Both the position numbers and the translations under genes were made by a program. A stretch of 64,000 bases of DNA from Acidilobaceae archaeon (GTDB taxonomy: Archaea; Thermoproteota; Thermoprotei_A; Sulfolobales; Acidilobaceae), in contig JALTZJ010000019.1 in NCBI GenBank assembly GCA_027046245.1, forward strand, positions 1 through 64,000, read 5' to 3'. Shown here piece by piece: positions 18,860-22,746 of the stretch (the stretch's first letter is position 1; every line of letters begins with the position of its first letter). The notes beneath the pieces are model-generated. The model did no database searches. It was not told the origin of the DNA and was given only the letters and a program-made list of their open reading frames with translations.

Positions 18860-20020
18860 TTAGGCTGGTTTAGCTGGCTTGTATATTGTTGTGTATGCAT
18901 AGAGTAGTGCTGCTCCTATGAGTACTAATGTAGCGGTTATAGTGTAGATGAAGAGTGCTTGACTCGCAGTGTTTACGTTTACGTTGAGCAGGCTTACAGC
19001 CTGCTCCAGGGCTGCTCTTTCCTGTGGCGGCAGATTCTCGAGTATCGCCTGGTAGTCCGCTATGAAGTATGGGTACTGGCTGAAGGCGTTAAGGTACTCT
19101 CCTGCCGGCACAGTGACTATGGCTGCTGCCGCCGCAGCTACTAGCAGGGGCTTCGCCCTGGTTATGCCTGCTTTCAGGGCGTAGCCTATGGCTGCTAGCT
19201 GGACTAGCCATAGTAGCACTTTGAGTGCCAGCAGCCATGATAGGTTGAGGGCCGGCTCTCCCCCTATGCCTAGGCCCCCAAATATATTGTTGAACTTGTA
19301 CTCTACCGTACGGAGGCTCCAGCCATACCATAGACCGGCTAGAGCTACTAGTACTAGCATCGCGATGGCCGGTTTAAGGTAAAGACGCGCTATCTCGCTT
19401 CTACCCTTTAGGGCGGCCCAGCCAGCGGCGGCTATCAGGGTTAGGGCTAGGCTCGCCGTTATACTCTTGACGTAGAGGGGCCAGAGGTGTGGATTCCCTA
19501 GGAGCGCCTTCAAGGGGTTCAATACTATCTGGTTCAGCCCCTGTATTTCTACTCCCACGGGTTCGTTGAGCTGGGCGAACACGCTCCTAAAGCCTAGAGG
19601 TATTAGGAGTGCGCTTGCTGCTAGGAGGATGCCGAAGGCGTTGTGTATTCTGGGTTCTAGTTTGTTCCAGCCGTAGTAGTATGCTGTGAGGCTTAGGAAG
19701 TGGAGCGCTATCATTGCTATAGCGAAGGCGAAGTTGTATAGTGCTATCTTCCCTGCTAGCCCCACGAACTCTGGGTAGTAGCTTAGCAGGTATACTGTGA
19801 AGGCTGTTCCGAAGACGCCGCCCAGGGCGTAGGTTGCAGCGTAGAAGCGGAGGAGCCTGTAAGCCTCCTCCTTCAGTTCGGGCCTCCCCCACTTCTCGCT
19901 CAGCACCTTTAGTATAGGTGCTAGCACGCTGATACCGATACCTAGGTTAACGAGGACTATGTGAATGCCGAAGCTGAATGCAAGCCAGAATACTGCAGCC
20001 TCCTGCATAGCCCCCTTCAC
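18860..20020 (-). CDS. second cytochrome bd oxidase subunit, CydA' type (CydA paralogue)
   Basis: CydA-like N-terminus (FWLAFSFGIHIVLVNLGIGISVLAPIL), YYYGW after the TM segment; located 4 bp after CydA; appears to lack the conserved E pair of the CydA quinone/proton site. Confidence 0.75.
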   Translation of the reverse strand: MKGAMQEAAVFWLAFSFGIHIVLVNLGIGISVLAPILKVLSEKWGRPELKEEAYRLLRFYAATYALGGVFGTAFTVYLLSYYPEFVGLAGKIALYNFAFAIAMIALHFLSLTAYYYGWNKLEPRIHNAFGILLAASALLIPLGFRSVFAQLNEPVGVEIQGLNQIVLNPLKALLGNPHLWPLYVKSITASLALTLIAAAGWAALKGRSEIARLYLKPAIAMLVLVALAGLWYGWSLRTVEYKFNNIFGGLGIGGEPALNLSWLLALKVLLWLVQLAAIGYALKAGITRAKPLLVAAAAAAIVTVPAGEYLNAFSQYPYFIADYQAILENLPPQERAALEQAVSLLNVNVNTASQALFIYTITATLVLIGAALLYAYTTIYKPAKPA

Positions 20021-20024
20021 CCCC

Positions 20025-21671
20025 TCACCTCCAGAGGAACCTCCAGACAGCCCAAGCCAGCACAGCGAGAAGCACCACTAGGTAGATGCCTATGAGGGCT
20101 AGACTCAGCATGTCCGGGCCGGCCGGGTTAGCAGCCTCAGCTGGGGTGAAGATCCCATAAATAGTGAAGGGCTTCCTGCCCACCTCCCTCACTACCCAGC
20201 CTAGAGTGCTGACTAACTGGGCCATGACGGGGCTGGCTGCTATAACTGCCAAGCTCCGCTTGCCCAGTTCCCCCTTCCTGTGCAGCACCGCTGCAGCGTA
20301 GATGCTGAACAGTGCTAGAGCGACTGCCAAGCCTACCTTAGTGTAGTACGCGTAATGCACTAGTATTGGTGGCCTGCACTCGGTAACCGGGGCTCCTGGG
20401 AAGCTGCAGTAGTCCTGCGGTATCTCATCGTACTCTGGTAGGGGGGCGTTGAAGCTTCCATAGGCTAGGAACGCTACCAGCCTCTCTGGCAGGCCGAGGA
20501 GTATGTGTCTACTTATGCTTATCACCTGGTCGGTGGTTCCCTCTATTGCTGCTAGCTTCTCGGGCACGTAGTGGGCTATAACTAGCGCCTGCTCGTGACC
20601 CAGCAGGGCGCCCTGGACTACTATCGCGATCATGGCGAAGGTGAGGGCGAATTTGAGGGCCCTCAGGCTATACTCTCTGCCGGCGCCGCCGCCCCTCAAT
20701 AGTCTTAGAGCATATACACCAGCCACCGTGTAGGCGCTAACAACTACCCCTGCTCCTATTGTATGGGCCACGCTTGCCAGCCACACGGGGCTGTGGAAGG
20801 TGTAGAGTAGCGGGTCGTATACCTCTAGAGTATAATTCATTATCGCGTCTAGTACCTCGCTCACTGGTGTACCTGCAAGCTGTTGCTTTGCTTCCTCTGT
20901 GAGGAGGCCCCAGAGTATACTGTCCTCTATTCTGTAGCCGTTGGCAGCCTCCCAGAACAGCCTATATGTAACCTTTATGGGCAGGCTAGCCTCTATGAGG
21001 CCGTCGGCAGTTGTCCTCACTACTATGCCGGCTGCCGCTAGCTTCTCCGGGTCTAGTGCCTGGGCTATTTCGGGCGGCACGTACACGCTTATCCTCGGGT
21101 AGCCCTGATCGTAGAGTGCACCCTGGTCTGGAGTCCAGCCTGGTTCGAGGCCTGTAGGGGCTACCATGAAGCTGTTGACCGCCATTATCATTGCTGCACT
21201 GTACCATGCCCCCACGAATACTAGCATTGTTAGGATTAGCCTGGTCTTGTCTCCTACCTTACCCCATCCATAGTATAGGAAGTACACGAATACAACTTCC
21301 ATTATGAAGGCATAGATTTCAGCGTAGAAAGGGAAGTAAACCCATTTTCCTCCTGCTTCGGTGAAGTTAGGCCATAGTAGTATGAGGCCGAATTCTGCTG
21401 CAGTTCCCGTGGCTGCACCTACAGCGAATACGATTACGAATCCCTTCACTAACTTCCTAGCAAGGTCTAGCCAGAATCTATCCCTAGTTTTAAGGTAGAT
21501 TAACTGTGCTATGAACGCTATGAACGGTAAGCCCACTACATACTGTAGTATTATCCAGTGTACGTCTATTCCTATAGCTGAGATTAGCCTTGAACTAGCC
21601 TCGGGGTAGCTGGCCCACTGTTCTATCATGAAGCGTATAGTCTCTAGTGGGCCTGCCGGCATACTGTTCAC
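20025..21671 (-). CDS. cydA: cytochrome bd ubiquinol oxidase subunit I (CydA)
   Basis: AEIYAFIMEVVFVYFLYYGW (E99/E107-type motif), WLASVAHTIGAG, GWVVREVGRKPFTIYG; multi-pass membrane protein. Confidence 0.88.
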   Translation of the reverse strand: MNSMPAGPLETIRFMIEQWASYPEASSRLISAIGIDVHWIILQYVVGLPFIAFIAQLIYLKTRDRFWLDLARKLVKGFVIVFAVGAATGTAAEFGLILLWPNFTEAGGKWVYFPFYAEIYAFIMEVVFVYFLYYGWGKVGDKTRLILTMLVFVGAWYSAAMIMAVNSFMVAPTGLEPGWTPDQGALYDQGYPRISVYVPPEIAQALDPEKLAAAGIVVRTTADGLIEASLPIKVTYRLFWEAANGYRIEDSILWGLLTEEAKQQLAGTPVSEVLDAIMNYTLEVYDPLLYTFHSPVWLASVAHTIGAGVVVSAYTVAGVYALRLLRGGGAGREYSLRALKFALTFAMIAIVVQGALLGHEQALVIAHYVPEKLAAIEGTTDQVISISRHILLGLPERLVAFLAYGSFNAPLPEYDEIPQDYCSFPGAPVTECRPPILVHYAYYTKVGLAVALALFSIYAAAVLHRKGELGKRSLAVIAASPVMAQLVSTLGWVVREVGRKPFTIYGIFTPAEAANPAGPDMLSLALIGIYLVVLLAVLAWAVWRFLWR

Positions 21672-21732
21672 CCTTCTAAGTAACCATTATTTTTCATGAT
21701 TCTAATCAACAGTTAAAATGACTTCCTTAAAT

Positions 21733-21750
21733 GTTAACTGTTAAGTTAAC
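21733..21750. promoter_or_regulatory. GTTAAC-TGTTAA-GTTAAC operator-like repeat in the cyd/wHTH-RDD divergent spacer
   Basis: gttaactgttaagttaac, with further TTAACT/TAACTG-like elements nearby in an AT-rich spacer. Confidence 0.4.
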
Positions 21751-21939
21751 TAGTTTTAGGAGAGTACACCAGATACTTTAACAAGCGTTAATTTAGCCGC
21801 TAACTAGTGGAGTTGAAACGCATTCAACTACAATTAGTGTTCTAACTGTGGTCCCATGACTACTAGCTCCGTTTTAAAACCGCTGATTAAGAGGCGTTAG
21901 ATATGCGGCCCGTGGTAGGCCAGACGGTGAATCGCTGCT

Positions 21940-22746
21940 TTGGCAGGCAGGCAGCAAGCTGATGAGAGCCCCCTGAGAGAGGTCTGCAACGCCGCCTGCA
22001 ACCCCGTGAGGCGTCGGATTCTAGAGGTACTGTATGAGAGCGTTGAACTGCCATACGGCGAGCTGGCACGTAGGGTAGGTATAAGCGAGAACCTGCTAAA
22101 CCATCACCTCAAAAGGCTAGGCGGGCTCGTCGAGAAGGGGGAGCAGGGCTACAAGCTAACCCTTCAGGGCCGGAGAGTCCTGGAACTTATAAGGGGGATG
22201 GAGAGGGCTCTAGGGGCTGAGCTGCGCAGCGCGGATGAGGCCCCTAGGGAGTCCGTCTCCCCCAGTATGGTCGCAAGGAGAACAATAGCTTTCCTAATAG
22301 ACCTCACGATCTTCTTCATAGCAACAGGTGCTCTACTAGACCGTACTCTACTTGCGGGGATGGCGGGTATCCTGGCAGCGCTAGCAGCATTAGACCTTCA
22401 AGGTCTCGTGGATAGTCTTCAGCTTCTAGTTGAGAGAAGCCTAATAGGCTACAGCAATGTGTTCTTTGCCAGTTACATATTCCTCACTCTTACAGAGGCC
22501 TACAAGGGGCAAACCCCCGGGAAGCACCTGCTAGGCCTGAGGGTCCTAAGAGTTGATGGAGGCAAGGTCAGCCTAGTTGAGGCGGGAATAAGGAACGCCG
22601 GCAAGATCTTCCTACTCCCCGTTGACCTGGCTCTCGGCCTCCTCCTCTACAGGAGACACGGCTACTTGAAGTTCACCGATTACTATACGAGGACTGTAGT
22701 AGTGAGGGAGAAGGGTTACACTAGGATTGAAGCGTTTGCAGGCTGA
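21940..22746 (+). CDS. winged-HTH transcriptional regulator fused to RDD-family membrane domain
   Basis: N-terminal ArsR-like HTH (CNPVRRRILEVLYESVELPYGELARRVGISENLLNHHLKRL); C-terminal RDD-like membrane domain (ARRTIAFLIDLTIFFIATG...GQTPGKHLLGLRVLRVDGGKVSL...RNAGKI). Confidence 0.75.
   Translation: MAGRQQADESPLREVCNAACNPVRRRILEVLYESVELPYGELARRVGISENLLNHHLKRLGGLVEKGEQGYKLTLQGRRVLELIRGMERALGAELRSADEAPRESVSPSMVARRTIAFLIDLTIFFIATGALLDRTLLAGMAGILAALAALDLQGLVDSLQLLVERSLIGYSNVFFASYIFLTLTEAYKGQTPGKHLLGLRVLRVDGGKVSLVEAGIRNAGKIFLLPVDLALGLLLYRRHGYLKFTDYYTRTVVVREKGYTRIEAFAG

Follow-up and report, generated by a model that had tools for sequence, protein, structure and literature searches.

What kind of oxygen reductase, if any, is encoded by the two CydA-like genes lying side by side in a 64,000-nucleotide stretch of DNA (the window) from a heat-loving archaeon related to Aeropyrum, and which residues would hold its haem b558? 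The preliminary description of the window proposed a cytochrome bd oxidase composed of two CydA paralogues without CydB. Both open reading frames were found where it had put them, and the motifs quoted in it were recovered. The features of the locus are listed in Table 1.

Two CydA paralogues and no detected CydB

The genes are neighbours on the minus strand, separated by 4 nt, and the same tandem cydA-cydA' pair was found at about 80 loci in related archaea. Both products exceeded the PF01654 cut-off of 26.2 bits. A chance pair or a wrong reading frame was ruled out by the Pfam scores, the profile-profile match (E = 6e-26), and the related loci. The sequence GGAGGTGA precedes the GTG start of cydA'. 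For cydA, an alternative ATG at 21662, three codons downstream of the GTG, yields a protein of 545 aa; the Shine-Dalgarno-like GGTGA is better placed for this ATG than for the GTG, and it may be the true start.

The family profiles of CydA' and CydA aligned end to end. The 386-aa protein had no Pfam match to the subunit II family PF02322, and a profile built from 15 relatives gave significant PDB matches to CydA chains only. When the AlphaFold2 model of CydA' (pLDDT 84, pTM 0.85) was used for a fold search, all ten solved CydA chains (E from 3e-10 to 2e-7) ranked above all ten CydB chains (8e-7 to 6e-5); the two folds are related, so it is the rank that counts and not a match to CydB as such. 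CydA' as a CydB was thus ruled out by both sequence and fold. A better alignment with CydB, named in the preliminary description as a result that would refute its proposal, was looked for, and the alignment with CydA proved the better one in Pfam, PDB sequence, and fold searches alike.

The same description had named a genuine cydB elsewhere as a second such result. A search for the CydB family in the genome assembly of the organism (76% complete) found none, and no second CydA was found there either. The incompleteness of the assembly leaves some room for a conventional CydAB oxidase with an undetected CydB, in which case CydA' would be a paralogue of unrelated function. We regard this as highly improbable: the PF02322 cut-off was reached in none of 397 Thermoproteota genomes, though the control archaea Haloferax and Methanosarcina gave clear signals, and cydA' directly follows cydA in the examined tandem loci outside the Sulfolobaceae-like group, as far as the length of the flanks permits. 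With PF01654 on both genes and no CydB detected, the pair is confirmed as a CydAA' oxidase, which is, as the preliminary description held, an already published archaeal family.

Table 1. Features of the cydA-cydA' locus in the window (positions in nucleotides).
Feature	Position	Strand	Basis
cydA, catalytic subunit	20025..21671	-	548 aa from GTG; PF01654 256 bits; sequence and fold match to all solved CydA chains
CydA His38 codon, H19/H21 position of the di-haem site	21558..21560	-	alignment to 5doq
CydA Glu118 and Glu125 codons, E99 and E107 positions, AEIYAFIMEVVF helix	21297..21320	-	alignment
CydA insert of ~100 aa, extracytoplasmic TM4-TM5 loop	20817..21143	-	modelled as a small compact alpha/beta domain
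CydA His303 codon, other b558 axial ligand position (H186)	20763..20765	-	kept in all CydA except the Sulfolobaceae-like group
CydA Q-loop Lys372 and Glu377 codons, K252 and E257 positions, quinol site	20541..20558	-	alignment to 5doq
CydA Lys445 codon, haem b558 axial Met position (G. thermodenitrificans M325, E. coli M393)	20337..20339	-	gap-free local alignment PPL-x-x-HY...K/M
CydA Glu496 codon, E445/E378 position	20184..20186	-	invariant in alignment
cydA', paralogous partner subunit	18860..20020	-	386 aa, GTG start; PF01654 71 bits; hhalign to CydA E=6e-26
CydA' His20 codon, H19 position	19961..19963	-	invariant in 79/79 CydA'
CydA' Lys185 codon, H186 position	19466..19468	-	profile alignment
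CydA' Lys267 codon, M393 position	19220..19222	-	profile alignment
CydA' Glu308 codon, four residues before the E445 position (Ala312)	19097..19099	-	invariant in 79/79 CydA'
Shared intergenic region, GTTAA/TTAAC-rich, candidate operator	21672..21939	.	word count, inverted repeats
Divergent gene, winged-HTH and RDD membrane domain	21940..22746	+	Pfam HTH_24/HTH_20/DUF7347 and RDD

Ligand positions of the two subunits

Alignment of CydA with the Geobacillus thermodenitrificans chain (5doq) established the correspondence of H38, E118, E125, H303, K372, E377, E496, and R499 with H21, E101, E108, H186, K252, E257, E378, and R381, respectively. The sole exception among the compared ligand sites was M325 of 5doq (Met393 of E. 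coli), which is Lys445 in the window. This change at the b558 ligand was absent from the preliminary description. The position is occupied by Met in other solved CydA chains too, and the PPL..HY motif provides a gap-free anchor for the alignment. In E. coli, the axial ligands of the low-spin haem b558 are His186 and Met393 (PMC6853902).

In archaeal loci with both genes, Lys was found at the Met393 column in 47 of 76 cases and Met in the remaining 29, with at least four switches between them on the tree. Across 87 archaeal CydA sequences, the column contained Met, Lys, or His only, so every residue that it admits is one that can ligate haem iron. His was confined to a group with Met at the His186 column, an exact swap that points to the two columns forming one ligand pair. 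Among the K-type proteins, no other constant potential ligand (His, Met, or Cys) was found within eight residues of Lys445. For TsdA, both His/Lys-ligated haems and an exchange of Lys and Met at a single haem are established (PMC6879331). Considering the restricted column, the swap, the lack of another ligand nearby, and the TsdA precedent, Lys445 is best interpreted as ligating haem b558 together with His303. Literature searches, to which the founding CydAA' paper was out of reach, returned no report of a lysine at b558.

The profile alignment reproduced the earlier residue assignments for CydA': H20 occupies the H19 position, A100 and H107 the E99 and E107 positions, and K185 the H186 position. 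In every one of 79 CydA' sequences, Ala or Ser occupies the E99 position, and just one sequence retains E445. The b558 positions are Lys/Lys in the branch of the window; elsewhere, His/Lys, His/Met, Ala/Asp, and other combinations occur. At six loci (L057, L059, L060, L062, L063, and L072), CydA has His/Lys and CydA' has His and Met, a complete b558 pair in the supposedly inactive subunit. A linked change to Lys in both subunits was also considered; there are 41 K/K pairs, yet these correspond to four and two changes on the tree, which is not significant, and the linkage is not claimed.

Two other readings of these positions were weighed. Lys445 could be off the iron and pair instead with quinol or a haem propionate; b558 would then be five-coordinate, or its sixth ligand would be water or a different residue. 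The structural model of CydA contained no haem. In the CydA' of the window, both equivalent positions are Lys and the partner His is missing, so lysines here can serve roles besides haem ligation, and on general chemical grounds a ligating lysine must be deprotonated. The restriction of the column to three residues, the swap in one group, and the absence of a conserved alternative (the residue six before Lys445 is His, Asn, or Lys) speak against this reading, and we consider it rather doubtful. It is also possible that CydA' itself binds haem and that the complex carries haems beyond the three of CydA. The His at the H19 position and the Glu near the E445 position, both invariant, fit such a role, as does His at the H186 position in 30 CydA', six of which also have Met at the M393 position. 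The constant loss of Glu at the E99 position and the presence of Lys rather than His at the H186 position in the window make haem binding by this CydA' unlikely.

Relation to known cytochrome bd oxidases

We know of only one CydAA' enzyme that has been studied. It is the oxidase of Caldivirga maquilingensis, which Murali, Gennis & Hemp reportedly described in 2021 (ISME J 15:3534) as an archaeal CydAA' oxidase; the purified enzyme is said to contain only b-type haems and to have quinol:O2 activity. Their CydAA' oxidase is cited in PMC8509429 and PMC12542729. Like the window, C. maquilingensis has a tandem archaeal cydA-cydA' pair without CydB, the active-site residues of its CydA are kept, and its CydA' has no E99/E107. 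The pair we presume to encode this enzyme (L092) is the one CydA-CydA' pair found in that genome and shares 27% identity with the window in both subunits. It has His/Met at b558 vs. His/Lys here, a TM4-TM5 loop of 52–58 vs. 141 residues, a Q-loop of 54–58 vs. 73 residues, and Ala/Asn vs. Lys/Lys at the b558 positions of CydA'. The lysine at the methionine position sets the branch of the window apart from the characterised enzyme, and the window enzyme belongs to an uncharacterised branch, probably with a His/Lys haem b558.

According to the tree based on concatenated CydA and CydA', the window falls among archaeal CydAA' sequences in a group of 32 rows with a support of 100. Among named relatives, the nearest is 'Aeropyrum sp.' S012_63 (L033), with 68–70% identity. 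The pair was not found in two complete genomes of the same genus as this relative (G002 and G004), indicating a patchy presence of CydAA'. In several loci (L056-L063, L068-L070, L072, L073, and L080), the Glu257 position of the Q-loop is Val, Ser, Ala, or Thr, which suggests that the quinol site is altered or that electrons come from a different donor. Two cydA genes are interrupted, one by TAG and TAA (L009, G059:C1:33873-37562) and one by a single in-frame TGA (L103, G243:C1:1249892-1251484), possibly as pseudogenes or through assembly errors.

The TM4-TM5 loop of CydA comprises 141–143 residues here vs. 52–58 in Caldivirga-like proteins and 41 in 5doq. The modelled insert had pLDDT values mostly of 85–94 across CydA residues 190–280. 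We take the additional ~100 residues to lie on the Q-loop side of the membrane.

The G. thermodenitrificans enzyme (5doq) shares with the window the CydA fold, the residues H21, H186, E378, E101, E108, K252, and E257, and a 73-residue Q-loop; it differs in having CydB, Met325 at b558, and no TM4-TM5 domain. Cytochrome bd-I of E. coli (6rko, 6rx4) belongs to the same superfamily and, by homology, performs the same reaction; unlike the window, it has CydB and small subunits, a long Q-loop, and His186/Met393 at b558 (PMC6853902). Compared with a canonical CydAB oxidase, the window lacks the CydB partner and has Lys445 at the b558 Met position. The Sulfolobaceae-like CydA (L047-L051 and L053-L055) share the phylum, PF01654, and the di-haem residues with the window, whereas they have Met at the H186 and His at the M393 position, and are followed by a different membrane protein of 355–361 aa, not CydA'. 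The CydAA' kind of oxidase is already known; what sets the present one apart is its uncharacterised branch, with a probable His/Lys b558 and an added external domain. We lean somewhat towards the view that this large branch uses a His/Lys b558 as the quinol-facing point of electron entry, repeatedly exchanged with His/Met, beside the added extracytoplasmic domain.

Proposed working and role

The divergent gene with the winged-HTH and RDD domains occupies the same position in the four closest loci (L033-L036), but not in more distant ones. Its intergenic region with cydA contains eight GTTAA/TTAAC words vs. 1.5 expected from shuffles, and the corresponding region of L033 gave the same values. 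The gene is a candidate local regulator and the region its candidate operator. A sigma-70 promoter match upstream was set aside, as this promoter type is wrong for archaea.

The pair would form a two-subunit membrane quinol oxidase with its chemistry in CydA. On the outer face, the Q-loop (Lys372, Glu377) would be the site of quinol oxidation. Electrons would move on to haem b558, whose axial ligands would be His303 and, most likely, Lys445 substituting for methionine. From there, they would reach the di-haem site (His38, Glu118, Glu125, Glu496), where O2 would be reduced to water with protons from the inside. CydA', devoid of the catalytic Glu residues, would serve mainly as a pseudo-symmetric structural partner. 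We infer the assembly and activity of the enzyme, as well as the ligation by lysine and the physiological role.

Two haem-copper oxidases are also encoded in the genome of the organism, so the CydAA' enzyme is likely an accessory oxidase, probably for low O2 or for O2 removal. The haem-copper subunit I genes (L075 and L076) have open frames of ~800 codons, much more than a COX1 domain occupies, so a fusion to another domain is probable. As a whole, we find it likely that the locus encodes a CydAA' oxygen reductase, in which a degenerate CydA paralogue replaces CydB and His303/Lys445 hold b558, and that it works as an accessory oxidase.

If lysine does ligate the haem, the branch would represent a membrane-bound b-type quinol oxidase with Lys as an axial ligand. 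Replacement of Met with Lys at a haem typically lowers its potential (PMC6879331), so the Lys branch would offer a natural series for how the potential of b558 is matched to archaeal quinones. The Lys/Met switches within the family and the His/Met swap of the neighbouring family provide ready pairs for comparison. Annotation rules with Met393 or CydB as a requirement will not read these oxidases correctly.
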